From Sulfurimonas sp. C5 (GTDB lineage Bacteria > Campylobacterota > Campylobacteria > Campylobacterales > Sulfurimonadaceae): DNA of 64,000 nucleotides. Shown here one piece after another: positions 41,886 through 59,238 of the stretch. Position numbers and translations under genes: made by a program. The stretch is taken from positions 620,001 through 684,000 of the forward strand of contig NZ_JARXNQ010000001.1 of NCBI RefSeq assembly GCF_029872055.1, given 5' to 3'. How positions within the stretch are numbered: position 1 is the stretch's first letter; every line of letters starts with the position of its first letter. The notes under the pieces were generated by a model that had not been told where the DNA came from, did no database searches, and saw nothing but the letters and a program-made list of their open reading frames with translations.

Positions 41886-42860
41886 TTACGTTATCGGACA
41901 AATTTTATGTTCTTTGTTTTCAATCTTATTCATATGCTCTAATAATGAACGAATAAAAGGAATGTGTAAGCTCATAGCTTCACTATATGTAGGTAATATC
42001 AAGTTATTATCTACTAAAACATCAGTAACAATCTTATTTGAAAGTTCACTTTGATAGTAAACAATTTTTTCTTCTAATGACTCTGACTTCCAATTGTTTT
42101 CTCTTAACTTCAAGTCAATTTTCCCATTTTCTTCATCTATATTTGCTATGAGTTTATCTGAAACTATTGTAAGTATCATAGGGCTATATGTAGAATTTGA
42201 ATACAATGAAAATGTATGGTTATCTATTTTTCCATTTAACAATCCATTAAACTCTATATATCCTGATCGCTTTGAATTATATATTTTAGGATCAAGACAT
42301 TTTGTTTCTAATTCAATATTATTTGAATCTACAAGATATGCCAAATGGTCTATAAAATGTAAAGCGTTACAGCCTATGCCCCAATCTCCACCTTGAAAAT
42401 TATAAGATACTTGTTTCGAACCTTCTAAAAGAGTCTTCAATTGTTTATACACTGGAAACATTCTTCTTGGGTGATTTACCCAACATTTTATACCTGATTC
42501 ATCTAATAATTTTTCAGTTTGATAGTATTCTTCAATCTTTTGAAACAAAACTTTTTCTAAAATTAAATTTTTTACTTTTTTATTTTTTGCTAATTCATCT
42601 ATAATCTTAAATCTAACATCAGCACTAGTCGCAATAATTACTAAATCTAATGTAGCAGATAATTCTTCTACAGCTTCAAAAAATTTGATACTGTTTACAT
42701 TATCTCTATTCTGTACTTCATAATACCTTTCTTCTGCTCTTTTTCTTGAACTTTCAAATGGTTCTACAACTTCTATGTCAATTTTAATACTACTTTGTGC
42801 TATACCTTGTAAATGTCTACTTCCTAGTTGACCTGCTCCAATGATGGCAACTTTTTTCAT
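41886..42860 (-). CDS. Gfo/Idh/MocA-family sugar oxidoreductase
   Basis: A 324-residue oxidoreductase beginning KVAIIGAGQLGSRHLQGIA, with NLILEKVLFQK at the EKP-motif position (Val for Pro) near residue 99 and NALHFIDHLAYLVDS near 180. It is a distant relative of its downstream neighbour, so not a recent duplication. The Shine-Dalgarno AAAGGA lies inside the tail of a decayed SDR gene immediately upstream, showing that the join happened at that point. Confidence 0.8.
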   Translation of the reverse strand: MKKVAIIGAGQLGSRHLQGIAQSSIKIDIEVVEPFESSRKRAEERYYEVQNRDNVNSIKFFEAVEELSATLDLVIIATSADVRFKIIDELAKNKKVKNLILEKVLFQKIEEYYQTEKLLDESGIKCWVNHPRRMFPVYKQLKTLLEGSKQVSYNFQGGDWGIGCNALHFIDHLAYLVDSNNIELETKCLDPKIYNSKRSGYIEFNGLLNGKIDNHTFSLYSNSTYSPMILTIVSDKLIANIDEENGKIDLKLRENNWKSESLEEKIVYYQSELSNKIVTDVLVDNNLILPTYSEAMSLHIPFIRSLLEHMNKIENKEHKICPIT

Positions 42861-42869
42861 TTTTTTCCT

Positions 42870-42972
42870 TTATAAACTAAATCCATCATCAACGACAACA
42901 TTTGTCCGTTCACAAACTGACTCATATATTTAAATAGACCTGCATATACTATTGTATACACGTCATCTTGAT
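42870..42972 (-). pseudogene. Frameshifted C-terminal remnant of a short-chain dehydrogenase (PtmA-like)
   Basis: The 115 bases between ptmE and the Gfo/Idh gene are not random spacer. One frame reads LFKYMSQFVNGQ, and the adjacent frame continues TNVVVDDGFSL and a stop at 42870. Joined, this is the standard C-terminus of classical SDR oxidoreductases (S-x-F-V-N-G-T-N-V-V-V-D-D-G-F), as in PtmA-like proteins of legionaminic acid clusters. Restoring a single A (GGACAAAT to GGAACAAAT) would heal the frame. The N-terminal 85-90 percent of the gene is gone. It begins directly after the ptmE stop. Confidence 0.7.
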
Positions 42973-42975
42973 GCA

Positions 42976-44022
42976 CTAAAATACCTCATCATATTCTTCG
43001 TTGGCTTTGTTATACTCTTCAATCCGTCCAATATCCAACCAATATTCTCTCAAAGGAAAAGAAACCGTATTTTTATTTTTACTAATAAGTGTTTCAAATA
43101 ATGTTGGCATATCAAAAAATTCATTTTCCGGAATATATTCTAAAACTGCTGGAGAAAGCATATAGATTCCAGCACTAACAAAAAATTTATGTACAGGCTT
43201 TTCTACTATAGACAATATCTTACTTTCATTAATATTGACAACTCCATATGGCACTTGAAAATCATATTCACGTACACACATTGTCCCTACTCCATTATTA
43301 GATATATGGTAATCATGAAGATGTTCAAAATTAACATTTGTAAGTAAATCGCCATTCATAACAAAAAATGGTTCTGTCGGTTTTTCTTCTAAAAGACTTA
43401 ATGCACCTGCTGTACCCATTCTTCGTTCTTCTAAAATATACTCAATATTAACTCCAAACTTTGTTCCATCTCCAAAATAATCCTGTATAACATGAGATTT
43501 ATAATTTACACACATTACAATATTTACATATCCATACTCTGCAAATTTTTCAACAATAGTCTCGAGAATAGGTTTATTCCCAACTTGCAACATTGGTTTT
43601 GGTACATCTTTGGTAAGCGGTCTCAATCTTGTTCCTAAACCGCCAACCATTAAAACAACTTTATTTGTCTTTATCTTTGGTTTAATTAGCTCTTCAATTT
43701 CCTGAAGTCCAACAACTTTTCCTTCTGCAGTAATTATTGGAATTTGATGCAGTTTTTTTGAGAGAGCTAATTTTAAAATTTCTTCTTTAGTATTACTAAG
43801 AGTAGCTATAGTTGGTGTAGTATATACAATTGATTCTACACTACTATTTAAATCTAATCCTTTTAATAACCCTCTTCTTATATCACCATCCGTTATAGTA
43901 CCTAATAACTTATCATTTTCATCTACTACTAGTGCTATTTGTAAAGCCCCATGGTCAATGATAGTTAAAGCTTCCTTTATTGTAGAATGAGTTTGTAGTT
44001 TTAGATTCTCTATATTTTTCAT
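42976..44022 (-). CDS. ptmE: Glucosamine-1-phosphate guanylyltransferase with CBS pair (PtmE-like)
   Basis: A 348-residue protein. Residues about 1-115 are two CBS repeats (TITDGDIRRGLLKG is the first signature), which may bind a nucleotide for regulation. The rest is a sugar nucleotidyltransferase with VVLMVGGLGTRLRPLTKDVPKPMLQVGNKPI near 122-153 and a catalytic Asp region in FVMNGDLLTNV. In Campylobacter PtmE makes the GDP-linked glucosamine precursor for legionaminic acid. It follows legG with no gap, which supports that role. A general hexose-1-phosphate nucleotidyltransferase is the alternative. Confidence 0.82.
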   Translation of the reverse strand: MKNIENLKLQTHSTIKEALTIIDHGALQIALVVDENDKLLGTITDGDIRRGLLKGLDLNSSVESIVYTTPTIATLSNTKEEILKLALSKKLHQIPIITAEGKVVGLQEIEELIKPKIKTNKVVLMVGGLGTRLRPLTKDVPKPMLQVGNKPILETIVEKFAEYGYVNIVMCVNYKSHVIQDYFGDGTKFGVNIEYILEERRMGTAGALSLLEEKPTEPFFVMNGDLLTNVNFEHLHDYHISNNGVGTMCVREYDFQVPYGVVNINESKILSIVEKPVHKFFVSAGIYMLSPAVLEYIPENEFFDMPTLFETLISKNKNTVSFPLREYWLDIGRIEEYNKANEEYDEVF

Positions 44023-45183
44023 TTAATATTCCAAGTCAAAAAATGATTTTTTTAATAATTCTTTTAAGTTATTTGTCTTCAAAACTTCTACTATTGTTTT
44101 ACTAGCCATACCTTCTCCATATGGATTTTTAACAGTAGATAAAGATTTCTGAAATTTATCACTATATAATTTAGAAATAGCGTGCAAAATATCTTGCTTT
44201 GTTGGTTTACAATCAATAATACTTTTTGCCTTGATACGCCCTTTTTGCCGATCACCAATATTAATAGTCCCTTTTTGAAAACTTGGAACTTCTAAAAGAC
44301 CGCTCGAACTGTTACCGACAGCTGCATCCACATACTGTAAAGCACTTAAATATCTTAATTGCCCCATAGAAGTAAATGCTATAGAATTTTTAGAATTTTT
44401 TAATACATATTCATCAATCATTGCATTAATAATTCTGCCATCAGTATCACTATTTGCTTTAGTAAAAATAATATTTGTATCATTCAATTCATCTATTGCA
44501 TCTAATAATTCTTGAAATTGTTCCTTTGCTGTTTCATTTTCCAAAGTGACAGGATGAAATGTGACTAAAATATTTCGTTTGTTCAATTGAAAGTTTATTG
44601 AATTTTCAAATTCTTTTTTCGATAATAGTTTCAGTCTTTTAATATTCTCTATTCCCATACCACCAACATTAAATACATTCTCAGGATTTTCTCCCAACTG
44701 AATAACTCTGTTTTTATATTCTTCAGTTGCAGTAAAATGTAAATGGCTCATTTTTGTAATACTATGTCTTATCGCTTCATCAAAAGCTCCTTCTGTAACT
44801 TCACCGCCATGAAGATGTGCAATAGGAATTCGTGATATCATGGCAGAACTAGCAGCGCTGAAGATCTCATATCTATCTCCTAGAAGAACGACAACATCCG
44901 GTTTTAAATCTTCATATACTTCAGAAAATGAAATTTGTGCTAGACCCATTGATTTTGAAATACCTACAGCTGTATCCGATGACAAAAGTATTTCAACTTT
45001 TTTATTAATGTTAAATTCTTCTTCTATCTCTTTATATGTTAAGCCAAATTCAGGACTCAGATGCATACCTGTAACTATTAATTGCAGTTCTAATTCAGGA
45101 TCTGCTTCTACAGTTTTCATAAGCCAATAAAGAAGTCCATATTCTGCTCTAGTACCGGTTACTACACAAATCTTTCTTTTCAT
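44023..45183 (-). CDS. legG: GDP-sugar hydrolysing 2-epimerase for legionaminic acid (LegG/NeuC family)
   Basis: A 386-residue enzyme of the hydrolysing UDP-GlcNAc 2-epimerase family. The start ICVVTGTRAEYGLLYWLMK, then GMHLSPEFGLTYKEIEEE, the His pair in PIAHLHGGEVTEGAFDE, and VGNSSSGLLEVPSF near 295 are all family hallmarks. In the Campylobacter pathway it releases 2,4-diacetamido-2,4,6-trideoxymannose from its GDP carrier. It overlaps legI by 4 bases and abuts ptmE. Confidence 0.9.
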   Translation of the reverse strand: MKRKICVVTGTRAEYGLLYWLMKTVEADPELELQLIVTGMHLSPEFGLTYKEIEEEFNINKKVEILLSSDTAVGISKSMGLAQISFSEVYEDLKPDVVVLLGDRYEIFSAASSAMISRIPIAHLHGGEVTEGAFDEAIRHSITKMSHLHFTATEEYKNRVIQLGENPENVFNVGGMGIENIKRLKLLSKKEFENSINFQLNKRNILVTFHPVTLENETAKEQFQELLDAIDELNDTNIIFTKANSDTDGRIINAMIDEYVLKNSKNSIAFTSMGQLRYLSALQYVDAAVGNSSSGLLEVPSFQKGTINIGDRQKGRIKAKSIIDCKPTKQDILHAISKLYSDKFQKSLSTVKNPYGEGMASKTIVEVLKTNNLKELLKKSFFDLEY

Positions 45184-46178
45184 ATGAGTTCATCTTTTTG
45201 ATAATTTTTTTGAGCGATTGAACCAATTACTTCATCCCATCTCATAGGGCTAATACCATTCCCAGGTCTTTTCACAACTATATTTTTTTCACTGAGTATA
45301 TCACCTTTTTGAATATCTGTACTAGCAACTATTGACTTTCTTGCAATTACAATATTTTTGCTTTCACTTTGACTAGGTTTTTTTATGCTACTACCTAAAG
45401 CAAGTTCTATATTTCTAATAGTCTTAATCATCTCTTTCAATTCATCCGGTTCTAACGAAGCTTTATGATCGGGACCTTCCATAGTTTTATCTAAAGTGAA
45501 ATGCTTTTCTATACATATTGCACCCATAGCAACTGCTGCGATAGGGACTTCAATACCCAGTGTATGATCGCTATATCCATAAGTTATATCAAATGTATTA
45601 CCAATTGTCATCATTGCTTTTAAATTAACATCCTGCATAGGAGTTGGGTACTCAGTATTTGCATGAAGAACTGTTATATTATCTTTAGTTGTACCAGTTG
45701 CGACTAAAACATCTAAAGCATCTTCAATTTCCCCAATATCTGCCATACCTGTAGAAAGAATGACTTTTTTATTTAGTTTCCCTATATCCCTAAGATATGG
45801 TAAATTTGTTATCTCACCACTTGGAATTTTAAAAATTTCTAATCCTAAATTATTTAAAAGTTCAATACTGTCATGGTCAAAAGGAGTTGATAAAAACATG
45901 ATTTTTTTCTGTTCACAATAACTGATAAGTTCTTTATGTGTATCTATATCGAGTTCAAGTTTTTTAATCATATCAAACTGTGACTCTTCTTGATCCGTAG
46001 TTTCTTTTTGATAGTCCGCTTTTTGTGCATTTTTAGAAACAAGGTTTTCTGTTTTAAAAGTTTGAAATTTCACTGCATCAGCACCTGCTTCAACAGCTAC
46101 ATCAATAAGTTGTTTTGCTAAATCAATAGAACCATTATGATTAACTCCTGCTTCTGCAATAATAAAGACTTTTTTCAT
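45180..46178 (-). CDS. legI: Legionaminic acid synthase (NeuB family)
   Basis: A 332-residue synthase that condenses the trideoxymannose derivative with phosphoenolpyruvate to give legionaminic acid. The N-terminal TIM barrel has AEAGVNHNGSIDLAKQLID and VKFQTFKTENLVS, the PEP-site ILSTGMADIGEIE and the metal/His site GYSDHTLGIEVP. A C-terminal SAF (antifreeze-like) domain starts near residue 275 with ARKSIVAS. Pseudaminic acid synthase and NeuB proper are close relatives; the surrounding leg genes favour legionaminic acid. Confidence 0.9.
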   Translation of the reverse strand: MKKVFIIAEAGVNHNGSIDLAKQLIDVAVEAGADAVKFQTFKTENLVSKNAQKADYQKETTDQEESQFDMIKKLELDIDTHKELISYCEQKKIMFLSTPFDHDSIELLNNLGLEIFKIPSGEITNLPYLRDIGKLNKKVILSTGMADIGEIEDALDVLVATGTTKDNITVLHANTEYPTPMQDVNLKAMMTIGNTFDITYGYSDHTLGIEVPIAAVAMGAICIEKHFTLDKTMEGPDHKASLEPDELKEMIKTIRNIELALGSSIKKPSQSESKNIVIARKSIVASTDIQKGDILSEKNIVVKRPGNGISPMRWDEVIGSIAQKNYQKDELI

Positions 46179-46753
46179 TTTAGTATACTCCCTGCTTTTA
46201 CAAAACCTTGTATTTCTACATCCTGTTTTGAAACTGCATTACTTCCATAAAAAGTATTTACTTTTACTGTCACACCACCATTGACAACACTTGCAGTTGC
46301 AATATGACAATTATCTTCAATTATCACATCATGTTCAACTAATGCTTTTGAATTGATAATACAATTTACACCTATTTTAGCGTTTGCATTGACAAGAGCA
46401 TGATGCATTACAATACTACCTTCTCCTATTTGAGCATACTTAGATACATAAGCAATTGGAGATATTACAATAGGTAGTGAAAAACCTATCTCTTTCAACT
46501 TTTGAAATAATTGAACACGTATTTTATTCGACTGAATATGTCCAATAGTAATAACTGCATTTTTACAATTTTGAAATATAGTTTGTAAATCATCATCACT
46601 CCCTATCACTTCATAACCTAAAATTTTTTTCCCTTTTAATTCCGGTTTATCGATAATCCCCATAATCTTATACTTATTTTCTTGTTCCAGTACATCTATA
46701 ACACTATGACAATGCCCACCACCACCAATTAATAAAACTTTTTCTTTACTCAT
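46175..46753 (-). CDS. legH: Sugar N-acetyltransferase (LegH/PglD/NeuD family)
   Basis: A 192-residue two-domain acetyltransferase: an N-terminal Rossmann-like half (VLLIGGGGHCHSVIDVLEQ) that binds the nucleotide sugar, and a C-terminal left-handed beta helix with the catalytic His in ALVEHDVIIEDNCHIA. It would acetylate the 4-amino group of the GDP-sugar made by LegC. It lies between legC and legI with 4-base overlaps. NeuD-type O-acetylation of the finished nonulosonate is a possible alternative. Confidence 0.85.
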   Translation of the reverse strand: MSKEKVLLIGGGGHCHSVIDVLEQENKYKIMGIIDKPELKGKKILGYEVIGSDDDLQTIFQNCKNAVITIGHIQSNKIRVQLFQKLKEIGFSLPIVISPIAYVSKYAQIGEGSIVMHHALVNANAKIGVNCIINSKALVEHDVIIEDNCHIATASVVNGGVTVKVNTFYGSNAVSKQDVEIQGFVKAGSILK

Positions 46754-47886
46754 ATTCTTACCGAACTAGGAATATTAACTATTCTGTCTTCTAAATATTT
46801 TGCATTTTCAAGATTCTCTGTTTGACAATATTTAAACATTTCAAGTTCATTCATCAGTTTCCAAATAGGTCTTGTCATTACACCATTTTTATTGGTATAT
46901 TCCAGAAACTGATTTCTCTGCTCTAAATTATCAAATAAAATTGCTTGAAGCCAATAATTTGAACATGATTCAATAGGCTCCATTACAAACTTCATCTGTA
47001 AAGTTGCAAAAAAGTCTTTATATATATCGGCCAATTCTCTTTTTGATTGCAAAAATTTTTCAAGATTTTCCATCTGAGCAACTAAAAGAGCTGCATTTAT
47101 ATTTGGCATTCTGTAATTATAAGCTATTTCATCATGTACATATTCATATAGATGTGGTACTTTTGCAGTAGTGGTCAAATGCTTTGCTTTCCTTGCTAAA
47201 ACTTCATCATCTGTCACTATAATTCCACCTCCCCCAGAAGTGATGATTTTATTCCCATTAAAACTAAATGCACCTAATTTACCGAATGTACCCGTATGCC
47301 GTCCCTTATAATAAGAACCTAAACTTTCTGCTGCATCTTCTACTAAGGCTATATTCCAATTGTCACATATCTCTTTAATTTCTGCTATTTTACACGGATG
47401 GCCAAATGTATGCATTGGTACACATGCTCTAATTACTTTATTCGTAGTTTTGTTGATACATTGCTGGTTAATTAATTTACAATTATTTTCTAAAAAATTT
47501 TTTAAAGATTTTGGTGATAATCCCATCGTATCTAAATCAACATCTACAAAAACAGGCTTTGCACCAATATAAGAAATAGCATTACAAGTAGCTATAAAAG
47601 TAAGAGGTTGCGTAATCACTTCATCATCTTGTTTTACTTCTGCCAGTAAAAGCGATATATGCAAAGCAGAAGTTCCATTTACAGTTGCTACAGCATATTT
47701 ACTTCCTGTATATTTTGCAAATTCTTGTTCTAATGTATCTACATATTGCCCAACACTAGAAACAAAAGTCGAGTCTATACATTGATTTAGGTATGCTTTT
47801 TCATTTCCTATAAATCTTGGTTCATGCAAAGGTATAAACTCTGTCGTATTATAAATTTTTTGTATATATTCAACAACTTTTTGCAT
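46750..47886 (-). CDS. legC: GDP-4-keto-6-deoxy sugar aminotransferase (LegC, DegT family)
   Basis: A 378-residue PLP aminotransferase that puts an amino group at C4 of the keto sugar made by LegB. The PLP-binding parts seen are TVNGTSALHISLLLA, LVEDAAESLGSYYKGRHTGTFG and the lysine region GAFSFNGNKIITSGGGGIIV near residue 203. The final part, IPSSVRI, is the usual DegT end. It overlaps both legB and legH by 1-4 bases. The family is shared by perosamine and other aminotransferases; context decides. Confidence 0.88.
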   Translation of the reverse strand: MQKVVEYIQKIYNTTEFIPLHEPRFIGNEKAYLNQCIDSTFVSSVGQYVDTLEQEFAKYTGSKYAVATVNGTSALHISLLLAEVKQDDEVITQPLTFIATCNAISYIGAKPVFVDVDLDTMGLSPKSLKNFLENNCKLINQQCINKTTNKVIRACVPMHTFGHPCKIAEIKEICDNWNIALVEDAAESLGSYYKGRHTGTFGKLGAFSFNGNKIITSGGGGIIVTDDEVLARKAKHLTTTAKVPHLYEYVHDEIAYNYRMPNINAALLVAQMENLEKFLQSKRELADIYKDFFATLQMKFVMEPIESCSNYWLQAILFDNLEQRNQFLEYTNKNGVMTRPIWKLMNELEMFKYCQTENLENAKYLEDRIVNIPSSVRI

Positions 47887-49076
47887 TACATTTTTCCATC
47901 TAAATATTTACCTGTTTCTTTGTGTCCAAAGTCTGGAATAAGTTTAAAAAACTCTTTTACAATATCATCCTTAGACCATGAAAGTTGAGTTTTAAAGTTA
48001 TTAATAACTTTTTCAAAACTATTTAGTTTAGCTTCATCATAAATTGCTTCGTTTTTTATGATACCAAGATTTTCAAATCTATCCATATCTAAAACTTCTT
48101 TATCAGTAAAAAACTCTTCAAAATCTTTTTCACCAGTTGTGTCACTCGGAGTAAAGAGGCATGGCCATTTACCTTGAGATGGTAAAGTTTTAGTTAACTC
48201 TCTCGCTTCATTTTCATCTTTGCATAAATATGGCTCATAACCCAAGTTTTTTAAATATTTTATGGCAATTTCAGAAAATGTGATAAGGTGTAAATTTTCA
48301 CTTAATTTAGGAAAAAATATATCTCTGTTTTCACCAAAAATACAAGACATTAGACAAAGTTCACCACTTTCTTGAGGTGTAACAAAATATCTTTTGATAT
48401 CATTTGGAGCAACTATAGGCTGTTGTTTTTGTATTCTTTGGTTAAAGCCGTGTAAAAGAGAACCATCACTAAAAGCTACATTTGCAAAGCGAGCCATTGA
48501 AACATCTATTTGTTTTGATTTTTTCATAACAAACATTTCCATAATTCTTTTACTAGCACCCATCATGTTTACAGGATTAGCTGCTTTATCCGTACTTACA
48601 CAAAAATATTTTTTAGTTTTGTTATTAATTGCCTGTTGTAGAGTTTTATCAGTATTAAAAATGTTTGTATCAATCATTCTCATTAAAGTGAAAGGGTCTT
48701 TTTCACTTCTAACATGCTTTAAAGCGGAAAGGTTTAAGATATAATCATATTGACCATCATTTTTTATAAAAGCGTCATATTCCATACTCCCTATATCAAG
48801 AGCAAAAGTAGCAAATTCCCCGTCAATATATCCAAAACTACTTCTGACATCCCTTACTAATTCAACCATATTATTTTCTGAAATATCTACTACATGTAAT
48901 TTTTTAGGATTTCTTTTAAAAATTTCTTTTGTAACGGCCTGTCCAATAGAACCTGCTCCACCTAAAACTAAGAATGATGATTCTGAAACAATTTTTGCCA
49001 ATTCTATTTGATTATTGTTAATATCATTTACAAAAAGTTCTTTAGTCCGTCCAATTAAGTTTAATATTTTTGACAC
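47886..49076 (-). CDS. legB: GDP-N-acetylglucosamine 4,6-dehydratase (LegB)
   Basis: A 396-residue extended SDR with the nucleotide motif FLVLGGAGSIGQAVTKEIF near residue 31, ALDIGSMEYDAF, and FCVSTDKAANPVNMMGASKR, whose T-D-K/M-x3-K set replaces the usual Tyr as in inverting and PglF-like dehydratases. In Campylobacter LegB starts the legionaminic branch from GDP-GlcNAc. It is the first of six consecutive leg genes. It overlaps the UDP-sugar dehydrogenase stop by one base. Confidence 0.88.
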   Translation of the reverse strand: MSKILNLIGRTKELFVNDINNNQIELAKIVSESSFLVLGGAGSIGQAVTKEIFKRNPKKLHVVDISENNMVELVRDVRSSFGYIDGEFATFALDIGSMEYDAFIKNDGQYDYILNLSALKHVRSEKDPFTLMRMIDTNIFNTDKTLQQAINNKTKKYFCVSTDKAANPVNMMGASKRIMEMFVMKKSKQIDVSMARFANVAFSDGSLLHGFNQRIQKQQPIVAPNDIKRYFVTPQESGELCLMSCIFGENRDIFFPKLSENLHLITFSEIAIKYLKNLGYEPYLCKDENEARELTKTLPSQGKWPCLFTPSDTTGEKDFEEFFTDKEVLDMDRFENLGIIKNEAIYDEAKLNSFEKVINNFKTQLSWSKDDIVKEFFKLIPDFGHKETGKYLDGKM

Positions 49077-54771: not shown

Positions 54772-55497
54772 TTATTTTATATTATTCTTTTTTATATACT
54801 CAACTATTTTTTGTGTCGCTTTTTCAACAGAAGTAGTATCTGTATCTATCACAATCTCTGCATGTTGTGGTTCTTCATACACATCATTAATTCCAGAGAA
54901 ATGTTTGAGTTCACCTTTTAATGCTTTTTCATAAACACCTTTGTAATCTCTTGATTTACAAGTTTCTATATTAGCTTTTACATATACTACAATATTGTTT
55001 TGAACCATCTTGCGAATTGCTTTACGCGATTCTCGATATGGTGAACCAAATGAAGCAACAGTTGAAACAGAATTATTTTGTAAAGTTTTGATCAAGTGTC
55101 CTATACGATGCATATGACGGTTTCGATCTTCTCTACTAAATCCTACACCGGGAATAATTTCACGAATATCTTTAGAGTCTAATCTTTCTAAAGGAATATC
55201 TAATTTTTGAAGCTCTTTATAGACAGCATCAGCTATTGTTGTTTTTCCAGACAAAGGTAAACCTGTAAACCAAAGATTAAATGGTTCTATCTTTTTACGT
55301 CCCCATTTTATCTTAAACCATGCTCTTTCATGCGCCCAGTAAAGTGCAACTTTAGCCACACTTTCAAGCATACCTGCTGCAATAGCCAGGTCAAGCCTAC
55401 CAAAAAAAATATAGACAATAATAACAGTAGTAAAAGTAGCAAAAAAACGCCAGCTAATACCCTTTACAATTGAACGCTTATTCGTATCTTTATACAT
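54772..55497 (-). CDS. DUF2061 membrane domain fused to an APS kinase-like domain
   Basis: A 241-residue fusion. Residues 1-60 are DUF2061: two hydrophobic helices with RSIVKGISWRFFATF at the start and AKVALYWAHERAWFKIKWG at the end. Residues about 68-241 are CysC-like, with the P-loop GLPLSGKTT (79-87) and the active-site loop ASFGSPYRESRK (Ser near 152). The usual DGDNVRHGL segment reads DSKDIREII, so the APS pocket differs from that of the standard CysC encoded at 57869-58474. It may anchor PAPS formation at the membrane beside the glycan machinery, or phosphorylate something else. It overlaps cysN by one base. Confidence 0.82.
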   Translation of the reverse strand: MYKDTNKRSIVKGISWRFFATFTTVIIVYIFFGRLDLAIAAGMLESVAKVALYWAHERAWFKIKWGRKKIEPFNLWFTGLPLSGKTTIADAVYKELQKLDIPLERLDSKDIREIIPGVGFSREDRNRHMHRIGHLIKTLQNNSVSTVASFGSPYRESRKAIRKMVQNNIVVYVKANIETCKSRDYKGVYEKALKGELKHFSGINDVYEEPQHAEIVIDTDTTSVEKATQKIVEYIKKNNIK

Positions 55498-56957
55498 TAG
55501 ATTTCTTTACATTCCCACTCAGGAAAGTGTGTTCTAATATATTCATTTAAAGCACGTTCAGCTTCTGTATATTCTCTTGAAAATATTTCATCATCCATGG
55601 ACTCATTGATAATAGAAGAAGCGATCATCCCTGCACCTACAGTATTATTAGTATAACGATCAATTACTATAAAGCTACCTGTATAACGGTTATCATTATA
55701 AGAATCTACTGCTATTTTTCTATCTAATGAAAGTGTACACTTTGCTATATCGTTAAGTTCAAGTTTGTGTGCATCTACTTCCTCAAAAGTATTAACATCT
55801 TTTTTGTATTCAATTGTTTTAAAAGTCCCATTAATTACAGATGTAGCACGTTTAATGATATAGTTAGAGTTTAATGTCATTGGTTGTTCATTCATCCAAA
55901 CCATCATTACACTAAATTTATTTGAAACTTCTGGAATATCACTTGATTTTACAATCATATCACCACGGCTAATATCGATCTCATCTTCAAGTGTAAGTGT
56001 AGTAGACATCGGAGCAAATGCTCTTTCAATAGTCTCTACACTTTCATCTTTAGTTTTTGGACGGAGCTCTTTAATCTCATTTGATATAATTGATTTTACT
56101 GTGGATGTTTTACGCGAAGGAAGAACTGTAATTGCATCACCAACTTTTATCTCACCACTTGAAATAGTCCCACAAAAACCTCTAAAATTCAAATGTGGAC
56201 GGTTGACATACTGAACTGGTAATCTAAAGTGTTCATTTACTTTTTTATTTACAGTAACTGTATCTAAAATTTCCATCAATGATTTATCAGTATACCAAGT
56301 ACATTTATCAGAATTTAAAACAATATTATCACCATCTAAAGCAGAGATAGGAATATATTGAAAATCGATATCAGTATAGTGTGGTAGATTTGGGATAATT
56401 CTCTCATAGTCAGCTTTAATCTCTTCAAATCTCTCTTGACTAAAATCAACCAAGTCCATCTTGTTAATGGCAACAACAATATTTTTAATGCCAAGTAATG
56501 ATGATATGTAAGAATGTCTCTTAGTTTGTGTTAAGACACCTTGACGAGCATCAATTAAAATAATTGCTACATCAGCAGTTGAAGCACCTGTAGCCATATT
56601 ACGAGTATACTGTTCATGTCCAGGAGTATCTGCAATAATAAATTTTCTTTTATCCGTTGAAAAAAAACGATACGCTACATCTATTGTAATCCCCTGCTCT
56701 CTTTCTGAAGCTAAACCATCCACTAAAAGAGCTAAGTCAATTTTATCACCTGTAGTTCCACTCTTTTTAGAATCTTTTTCAATTGCACTCAGTTGGTCTT
56801 CAAAGATCATTTTTGAATCATATAACAAACGACCAATTAAAGTACTTTTTCCATCATCTACAGATCCACAAGTTATAAAACGCAATATCTCTTTATTTTC
56901 ATGTTCTCTAAGGTATTGCTCTATATTTTCTGCTATTAAGTCTGATTGATGTGCCAT
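55497..56957 (-). CDS. cysN: Sulfate adenylyltransferase subunit 1 (GTPase)
   Basis: A 486-residue GTPase of the elongation-factor type that drives APS formation by CysD. Seen are the P-loop CGSVDDGKSTLIGRLLYDSK, ADTPGHEQYTRNMATGAS (G3), AINKMDLVDFS (G4) and two C-terminal beta-barrel domains. It overlaps both cysD and the APS-kinase fusion by one base. Unlike NodQ, it is not fused to CysC here. No cysH or cysI reductase gene is nearby, so the APS is not obviously for cysteine synthesis. Confidence 0.94.
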   Translation of the reverse strand: MAHQSDLIAENIEQYLREHENKEILRFITCGSVDDGKSTLIGRLLYDSKMIFEDQLSAIEKDSKKSGTTGDKIDLALLVDGLASEREQGITIDVAYRFFSTDKRKFIIADTPGHEQYTRNMATGASTADVAIILIDARQGVLTQTKRHSYISSLLGIKNIVVAINKMDLVDFSQERFEEIKADYERIIPNLPHYTDIDFQYIPISALDGDNIVLNSDKCTWYTDKSLMEILDTVTVNKKVNEHFRLPVQYVNRPHLNFRGFCGTISSGEIKVGDAITVLPSRKTSTVKSIISNEIKELRPKTKDESVETIERAFAPMSTTLTLEDEIDISRGDMIVKSSDIPEVSNKFSVMMVWMNEQPMTLNSNYIIKRATSVINGTFKTIEYKKDVNTFEEVDAHKLELNDIAKCTLSLDRKIAVDSYNDNRYTGSFIVIDRYTNNTVGAGMIASSIINESMDDEIFSREYTEAERALNEYIRTHFPEWECKEI

Positions 56958-57868
56958 TAAAAATATCCCTCTTGTTTTTTCTTCTCCATACTTGCATCTC
57001 CATCACTGTCTATCAAACGACCTTGACGTTCACTCGTAGTAGTTAAAAGCATCTCTTGTATAATCTCTGGAAGAGTATTTGCTTCTGAACTGATAGCACC
57101 AGTTAATGGATAACAACCAAGTGTTCTAAAACGTACCATCTCTTCTTTAGCTGTATTACGCAACTCTTCTGGCATACGCTCATCGTCTACCATTATTTTT
57201 GTACCCATATACTCAACTACAGGACGTTTTTTTGCAAAGTAAAGCTCCGGAATAGGAATTTGTTCTAAATAGATATACTGCCATATATCAAGTTCTGTCC
57301 AGTTACTTAATGGAAAGACTCTAATTGATTCACCTTTTTTATGTCTTCCATTGTATATGTTCCAAAGTTCAGGTCTTTGATTTTTTGGATCCCATCTATG
57401 GTTCTCATTACGAAAAGAATAAATACGCTCTTTTGCACGAGACTTTTCTTCATCACGTCTAGCTCCACCAAAAACAGCATCAAATTTATAGATATCTAGC
57501 ATTTGCTTGAGACCTTCTGTCTTCATTACATCAGTATGTAATGAAGACCCATGTTTAAAAGGTGAAATATCCATCTCCTCACCTTTAGGATTAGAATAAA
57601 CAATAAGTTCCATTCCAACTTCTTTTGCACGACGATCACGAAATTCTATCATCTCCTTAAATTTCCATTTAGTATCTACATGAACTAATGGTAATGGAGG
57701 TGGAGCAGGATAAAAGGCTTTTTGAAGAAGATGTAACATCACAGAAGAATCTTTTCCAACAGAGTAAAGCATAGCAGGATTTTGAAACTCTGCTATAACT
57801 TCACGCATAATATGAATAGATTCTGCTTCTAGTTGTTTAAGATGAGTTAATCTATTTGCTTTTATCAA
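56957..57868 (-). CDS. cysD: Sulfate adenylyltransferase subunit 2
   Basis: A 303-residue ATP-pyrophosphatase-fold enzyme that joins ATP and sulfate to give APS. The PP-loop is [18 protein letters not shown] near residue 36, followed by [37 protein letters not shown] and the C-terminal [22 protein letters not shown]. Length and motifs are complete. It follows cysC without a gap and is coupled to cysN. Confidence 0.95.
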
Positions 57869-58474
57869 TTAATTTCCCTTCCATTTTACATATTCTTTTT
57901 CAACTAAATAATTCATTATTTGTTGACACGCATTTTCTATAGAAATTTTATCGTTTTTAATATATATATCCGCTTTAGTAGGTACTTCATATGGAGAGTT
58001 TATACCTGTAAAATCCTTAATCTTTCCAGCTCTTGCTTTTTTATAAAGTCCTTTTGGATCTCTAGATTCACATACTTCCAATGGGGTATCTATAAACACT
58101 TCAATAAATTCTGTATCTTCGACAAGATTACGTACAAGCTTTCTATCTGATGCAAATGGTGAAATAAATGCAGTTAATACAATTAAACCACTATCAACAA
58201 ACAGTTTGGATACTTCTCCAACACGTCTAATATTTTCAATTCTGCTTTTATTATCAAAGCCTAAATCGTAATTTAGACCATGTCTTACATTATCCCCATC
58301 TAGCAGATATGTAAAATTACCATTATGATATAAAACTTTTTCTAATGCATTTGCTATTGTAGATTTTCCAGAACCACTAAGCCCTGTAAACCATAGGATA
58401 CACGGCTTTTGGTTAGTATGTTTTGACCTGTCAGTTTTAGTAATTTGATAATTATGCCACACTATATTTTTCAT
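57869..58474 (-). CDS. cysC: Adenylylsulfate kinase
   Basis: A 201-residue APS kinase that makes PAPS from APS and ATP. The P-loop is FTGLSGSGKSTIANAL (31-39 is GLSGSGKST), with LLDGDNVRHGLNYDLGF for APS binding, TAFISPFASDR with the active-site Ser, and FIDTPLEVCESRDPKGLYKKAR. Start choice: ATG at 58474, overlapping the cysQ stop by one base; the frame is open six codons further up. With cysD and cysN it makes a complete PAPS supply next to a sulfotransferase. Confidence 0.94.
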   Translation of the reverse strand: MKNIVWHNYQITKTDRSKHTNQKPCILWFTGLSGSGKSTIANALEKVLYHNGNFTYLLDGDNVRHGLNYDLGFDNKSRIENIRRVGEVSKLFVDSGLIVLTAFISPFASDRKLVRNLVEDTEFIEVFIDTPLEVCESRDPKGLYKKARAGKIKDFTGINSPYEVPTKADIYIKNDKISIENACQQIMNYLVEKEYVKWKGN

Positions 58475-59238
58475 TATTTCACTACAAACCAAGGATTTAA
58501 TAAATTTTCTTTGTTGTAGACTACAGGGATATCAGAATTAAACTGATACGTCATTTTTCCTGCTTCTCTAACTATAGCATCAGCAGCTGCTGTATCCCAC
58601 TCCATCGTTGGAGCAAGCCGAGGATATATATCTGCACTTCCTTCCGCTACCATACACAGCTTTAGTGAGCTACCTTTGGAAACTTGTTCTATCTCGTTTG
58701 CATTAAGATTATCTATAAATTGTTGAGTTTCATGTGACAGATGAGATTTAGAAGCAACTACATAAAGTTTATCACCTTGTTTTTCATTAATATACAATGG
58801 AAGTTTTTTACCATTTAAATAAGCACCTTTTCCCTGTTTTGCACTATACATAGCACAAATAGCTGGTGCATATACAACACCTAATACTGGAGTATTTTTA
58901 TGAATCAAAGCAATATTTACAGTAAATTCATCATTTTTTTTGATAAACTCTTTTGTCCCATCAATGGGATCGATACACCAATAATACTCCCAATTTCTCC
59001 TTATTTCATACTCTATCTGTTTGTTTTCTTCTGACATGATGGGAATATTTGGATATAACTCCATTAAAGTTTCACAAATTAGCTTATTTGATGCTAAATC
59101 AGCTTCTGTTAATGGGGATTTATCATCTTTATATTCAACCTGAAAATCTTTCTTATATATCTCCATGATCTCTTTCCCAGCTTTTTCTGCAATTTTTATT
59201 ATTTTTTCTAAGTCTATTTTATCAATTGTTACGCTCAT
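58474..59238 (-). CDS. cysQ: 3'(2'),5'-bisphosphate nucleotidase
   Basis: A 254-residue phosphatase of the inositol-monophosphatase fold that hydrolyses PAP, the by-product and inhibitor of sulfotransferases. Metal-site motifs are IPIMSEENK, WCIDPIDGTKEFIKK near residue 90 and MEWDTAAADAIVREAG near 208. It heads the cysQ-cysC-cysD-cysN set and is coupled to cysC by a one-base overlap. Its presence fits real PAPS turnover. Confidence 0.93.
   Translation of the reverse strand: MSVTIDKIDLEKIIKIAEKAGKEIMEIYKKDFQVEYKDDKSPLTEADLASNKLICETLMELYPNIPIMSEENKQIEYEIRRNWEYYWCIDPIDGTKEFIKKNDEFTVNIALIHKNTPVLGVVYAPAICAMYSAKQGKGAYLNGKKLPLYINEKQGDKLYVVASKSHLSHETQQFIDNLNANEIEQVSKGSSLKLCMVAEGSADIYPRLAPTMEWDTAAADAIVREAGKMTYQFNSDIPVVYNKENLLNPWFVVK

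Follow-up and report, generated by a model that had tools for sequence, protein, structure and literature searches.

Two legionaminate clusters in the genome of Sulfurimonas sp. C5 have most likely undergone complementary reduction into one split pathway, in which a cluster in the window (the whole stretch of 64,000 nucleotides that was analysed) supplies the LegF protein encoded on another contig, C3. The genes legB, legC, legH, legI, legG and ptmE are located in the window and legF on C3, so that the set for CMP-legionaminate (CMP-Leg) is complete in the genome. The latter is a 2.06-Mb draft of 25 contigs (99.97% complete), and the junction at which the window cluster was shortened, between ptmE and the oxidoreductase gene Gfo1, is internal to an 860-kb contig.

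Gene content of the window cluster

The following features were distinguished in the window.

47886-49076, minus strand: legB, dehydratase; 70-87% identical to legB of relatives, with the same gene order
46750-47886, minus strand: legC, aminotransferase (TIGR04181, 565 bits)
46175-46753, minus strand: legH/neuD-type acetyltransferase (TIGR03570)
45180-46178, minus strand: legI, NeuB-type nonulosonate synthase (TIGR03569, 528 bits)
44023-45183, minus strand: legG, NeuC-type epimerase/hydrolase (TIGR03568, 505 bits)
42976-44022, minus strand: ptmE, intact, CBS and nucleotidyltransferase domains, 348 aa; groups with the non-flagellar PtmE of genome G047 (support 0.993)
42940-42975, minus strand: 36-nt filler from the ptmE stop to the ptmA remnant, containing or bordering the deletion junction
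42939-42870, minus strand: remnant of the 3' end of a ptmA-type SDR gene (DNA alignment and joined reading)
42861-42869, minus strand: 9-nt spacer with AGGA (AGGAAAAAA) from the old ptmA stop to the Gfo1 start; locus L121 has 8 nt there
41886-42860, minus strand: Gfo1, Gfo/Idh/MocA oxidoreductase (PF01408); 50% identical over 324 aa to that of L121
40922-41872, minus strand: Gfo2, second Gfo/Idh/MocA oxidoreductase (PF01408); 63% identical to that of L121
36536-37630, minus strand: polysialyltransferase-family protein (PF07388, 41.9 bits, cut-off 23.3)

The legI gene encodes the sole NeuB of the genome (a single PF03102 match in the own-genome search), and legC is the only match in the genome above the LegC cut-off. 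The PF07388 protein is the likely candidate user of CMP-nonulosonate in this cluster.

A sulfotransferase gene (PF00685; 39407-40249) is found in the same polysaccharide region as genes resembling cysC, cysN, cysD, a second cysC and cysQ (54772-59238; names assigned by eye). Since the cys-like genes would yield PAPS and a sulfotransferase is present, the surface polysaccharide may be sulfated.

A ptmA remnant between ptmE and Gfo1

Between the end of ptmE (42976) and the start of Gfo1 (42860) there is a spacer of 115 bp, in which the sequence-only reading had recognized an SDR C-terminus spread over two frames. The frames are as it described, the first reading ...YMSQFVNGQ and the second TNVVVDDGFSL-stop; joined, they resemble (best E about 1e-9) the C-terminus of the 256-aa SDRs that relatives encode after ptmF-legF. 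When the DNA was aligned with ptmA 3' ends, the frames left unjoined, the score exceeded the best of 100 shuffles at 22 of 24 loci. The top score, 83, was obtained with ptmA of L120 (shuffle maximum 31), and most other ptmA genes scored 38-75 (best of 100 shuffles 25-37). Some 20 relatives carry an SDR gene at this place, contrary to the condition (no SDR gene in any relative) under which the sequence-only reading would have been refuted.

The remnant comprises the last approximately 23 codons, including the stop, and its frame is broken by small deletions. Although frameshifted, it matches the C-terminal motif of ptmA-type SDRs, ...DMSxYVNGQNIVVDDGFxL-stop, both as DNA and as joined protein. 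The cofactor-binding fold and the catalytic residues of the whole SDR domain are absent from these 23 or so codons and, judged from its sequence, the segment is an unusable remnant and not a working family member. The old ptmA stop is located at 42872-42870 and is followed by 9 nt up to Gfo1, compared with 8 nt between the intact ptmA and Gfo1 in L121. Genes for ptmA-type SDRs are placed after legF, and in one relative, L121, directly before Gfo1. The shortness of the spacer and the need for two frames in the protein reading could suggest ordinary intergenic DNA with a chance likeness to ptmA. However, the unjoined DNA alignment lies far above shuffles with many ptmA genes, and both the position and the spacing of the remnant agree with L121; this explanation is refuted by the shuffles and L121 and retains virtually no probability.

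The 36-nt filler matched neither the upstream codons of ptmA nor, by eye, the starts of ptmF, and gave no convincing match within its own genome. The whole spacer, used as a query against that genome, returned itself and short chance matches only. As had been claimed from the letters alone, the 64-kb window contains no intact legF or ptmA. In the genome as a whole, orthologues of the ptmA and ptmF genes of the Campylobacter pathway were not found: the best SDR was 27% identical to ptmA, and ptmF gave no match. A 39-codon GTG-started frame (42975-42861, minus strand) spans the spacer and overlaps both ptmE, at its stop, and the start of Gfo1. It is probably a chance frame, but it could maintain translational coupling of ptmE and Gfo1.

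Origin of the ptmE-Gfo1 junction

In most relatives, what comes after ptmE is legF itself or the set ptmF-legF-ptmA, the latter intact in many of them, and the tree clade that includes the window PtmE holds both kinds of downstream order. The undeleted order ptmE-ptmF-legF-acetyltransferase-ptmA-Gfo1-Gfo2 was identified in L121, a locus of the metagenome-assembled genome Zod_Metabat.1333 (Campylobacterales). A Gfo1 search of 149 genomes (E 1e-20) found none besides the own genome of the window, and L121 was detected via the ptmE search alone. A single deletion, extending from the end of ptmE to approximately codon 234 of ptmA, converts the L121 order into that of the window; the lost stretch is about 2.3-2.8 kb, as measured on L037 and L121. 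Given the identities of its Gfo1 (50%) and Gfo2 (63%), L121 can stand in for the ancestor but is no sister; it also carries an extra acetyltransferase gene between legF and ptmA.

The junction is best read as an in-place deletion of ptmF, legF and most of ptmA. The earlier reading, which had legF and most of the SDR gene removed between ptmE and the Gfo/Idh gene, thus holds for the SDR remnant, the legF loss and the junction. It had left deletion and cassette exchange side by side; of the two, deletion is favoured because Gfo1-Gfo2 directly follow ptmA in the undeleted order of L121, and ptmF has to be added to the losses. Under cassette exchange, the segment from Gfo1 onward would have recombined in with a ptmA tail, replacing the genes after ptmE. 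Polysaccharide clusters are mosaic, and the PtmE closest to that of the window (86% identity, support 0.993), from G047, is encoded directly before legF, with other genes behind. If the ancestor resembled G047, the ptmA tail and Gfo1-Gfo2 would have arrived together from elsewhere. Nevertheless, L105, L109 and L037, whose PtmE falls in the same clade, carry ptmF-legF-ptmA after ptmE, and ptmE to Gfo2 form one run in L121, so that a single deletion suffices; we consider the exchange unlikely.

The legF gene on contig C3

Three matches to PF02348 (CTP_transf_3) were found in the genome, namely KdsB, GlmU and one stand-alone CMP-nonulosonate synthetase. The last is the only such synthetase of the genome and is encoded on another contig than the window.

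C3:125354-126061: legF, predicted CMP-nonulosonate synthetase (PF02348, 117 bits, cut-off 22.6); intact frame

The genome-wide search proposed in the sequence-only reading therefore yields a single enzyme. Of the two outcomes foreseen there, a legF elsewhere or a nonulosonate that is no longer activated, the first proved right, as an intact legF is present in a flagellar island on C3. The best PDB relatives of the C3 LegF are CMP-NeuAc synthetases, and its score with the NCBIfam PseF model (186) is under the cut-off of 205.7. LegF proteins from 32 other genomes of the genus, in nearly all cases encoded next to or near ptmE, share 52-73% identity with the C3 LegF, which forms a clade with flagellar-island LegFs (support 0.911) and is orthologous to the synthetases encoded at the end of leg operons. 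Relocation of the window legF to C3 was considered and rejected: the C3 protein belongs to this flagellar-island clade and is of another subtype, with 38% identity to the ptmB-type LegF encoded after ptmE-ptmF in relatives of the window.

Among the other legF genes of the C3 subtype that could be read in the genus, nearly all have an intact ptmE upstream or at most two genes away; an exception is G083 (L188/L203), in which legF lies amid unrelated genes. In addition, Sulfuricurvum sp. MLSB (L127) has a ptmE without legF within 9 kb, and in Arcobacteraceae STC_79 (L106) legF is located about 9 kb past ptmE. Judging by L127, L106 and L203, unlinking of legF may be commoner than the present case.

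A reduced flagellin-glycosylation island

The C3 locus has the order fliS-fliD, a 97-aa ORF, legF, maf, maf, maf and flagellin, and this fliD-legF-maf-flagellin arrangement is a flagellin-glycosylation island. Three different tandem maf genes adjoin flagellin here (L004:13065-18948), and the islands of most relatives have one maf.

The 97-aa ORF is situated directly upstream of legF. Over its residues 9-97, the ORF shares 92% identity with the C-terminal end (89 residues, 261-349) of the PtmE from the flagellar island of G064, next to which it is placed in the tree (support 0.945), and 57% identity with the window PtmE. G064 is near-identical to G047, a single-contig genome from a species of the same genus as that of the window. 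In the island of G064, all genes from legB to legF are present between fliD and maf. The first residues of the ORF, MDKILTL, resemble the LegB start (M-x-KIL-x-LIGR) and occupy the same place as the legB start of G064. The ORF thus contains the C-terminus of ptmE and probably the start of legB, and the C3 island, which has no legB to ptmE, was probably shortened by a deletion running from the legB start into ptmE. The ORF is still open, with few amino-acid changes relative to G064 (dN about 0.04, dS 0.5-0.8), so either the loss is recent or the piece has been kept, perhaps owing to overlap with the legF start.

The island of G047 retains about 16 codons from the legB start that run into the final codons of ptmE, followed by legF beside maf; the one NeuB of this genome is encoded in a second, non-flagellar cluster. 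G047 has lost the same island genes by an independent deletion with other endpoints. In L042, L201 and L208, the leg operon has the other orientation relative to fliD and maf, and such altered orientation in some species indicates that the flagellar island is often rearranged.

A sigma-54-type motif, TGG-N8-TTGC, was identified 46 nt upstream of the 97-aa ORF. It precedes seven of 13 flagellar-island leg operons, including that of C3; two of the seven come from G047 and G064, which are near-identical. It was absent from 15 other leg operons, and by shuffling its chance is 0-0.7% per 120-nt stretch.

A proposed split legionaminate pathway

Since the single NeuB and the single LegC are encoded in the window and the single LegF in the island, neither locus would suffice for CMP-Leg by itself. 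The surface-polysaccharide locus would originally have contained the cluster legB-legC-legH-legI-legG-ptmE-ptmF-legF-ptmA-Gfo1-Gfo2. A deletion of roughly 2.3-2.8 kb would have removed ptmF, legF and most of ptmA, leaving a scar of about 23 codons to decay, and the C3 island would have lost the opposite set, legB to ptmE, keeping the fused start and the ptmE C-terminus. The window LegB, LegC, LegH, LegG, LegI and PtmE would then make legionaminate, which the flagellar LegF would activate to CMP-Leg. Cytoplasmic transfer of the sugar to flagellin would be the task of the Maf proteins, in line with reports on Maf systems (PMC9298399, PMC4065374), and its addition to polysaccharide may fall to the PF07388 transferase. 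With LegF behind a sigma-54-type motif, the activation step may be coupled to the regulation of flagellar genes.

Most flagellar islands of the genus also have no ptmF and ptmA, and therefore the loss of these two genes is probably tolerable. In Plesiomonas, a ptmA insertion abolished flagella (PMC4481668), and by analogy the loss of ptmA could matter.

Gene loss at both loci and the decaying SDR remnant might instead indicate a dying cluster, whose legionaminate is no longer activated or used, with the flagellar legF as a leftover. This is very unlikely, since legB, legC, legH, legI, legG and ptmE, like legF on C3, have intact frames of full length, and three intact maf genes and the PF07388 transferase gene are present. 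A variant of the split pathway has LegF serving flagellin alone, the window acting as a precursor supplier and the polysaccharide free of legionaminate. LegF does adjoin the maf genes, and the PF07388 protein, with its modest 41.9 bits, is the sole candidate nonulosonate transferase found in the window. On the other hand, the leg genes are surrounded by polysaccharide genes, this polysialyltransferase-family gene among them, and shared use of a CMP-nonulosonate is known in Aeromonas caviae (PMC4065374). Flagellin-only use is thus a serious possibility, albeit one that we do not favour over a split pathway serving both.

More speculatively, a second leg cluster in a polysaccharide locus might repeatedly drive the loss of legB to ptmE from the island, with legF kept behind its sigma-54 promoter. 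Flagellar control would then set the amount of activated legionaminate for the whole surface, including polysaccharide; we put this forward tentatively, as a proposal that may well prove wrong.

Annotation of such loci calls for caution, as a missing legF need not mean that a leg cluster is dead, and an isolated legF next to maf genes may have partner genes elsewhere.

Comparison with known systems

The CMP-legionaminic acid pathway of Campylobacter jejuni comprises legB, legC, legH, legG, legI and legF together with ptmA, ptmE and ptmF, and in Campylobacter the gene order is legI-legG-ptmE-ptmF-legF-ptmA. The enzyme set is the same here, including the GDP-sugar entry enzyme PtmE, and this order is conserved in relatives of the window. 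In contrast to C. jejuni, the present genome has an unlinked legF of another subtype and no ptmF or ptmA.

Plesiomonas shigelloides has a Leg cluster of the same composition beside flagellar genes; one gene of the pathway, pgmL, is unlinked from the cluster, and deletion of legF abolishes flagella (PMC4481668). However, its legF and ptmA are within the cluster, and there is no split between polysaccharide and flagellar loci (PMC4481668). In Aeromonas caviae, one CMP-pseudaminate pool feeds both Maf-dependent flagellin glycosylation and the O-antigen transferase Lst (PMC4065374). The likeness lies in one activated nonulosonate serving flagellin and LPS, but the sugar is another one, and two decayed copies merging into a split pathway are not described there (PMC4065374).

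All enzymes considered here belong to known families; the unusual part is the complementary decay of two clusters, and no description of such decay into a split leg pathway was found for this group in the openly accessible literature. The case illustrates how complementary decay can turn two redundant sugar pathways into a single one spread over two loci, so that polysaccharide and flagellum come to depend on one source of CMP-Leg. The nearest parallel is G047 (loci L081 and L082): there, too, the leg genes of the island are reduced to legF beside maf and the single NeuB is encoded in a non-flagellar cluster, but the deletion endpoints differ and the second cluster still has a legF of its own. 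A different deletion at the same island in a second species makes the trend testable across the genus.
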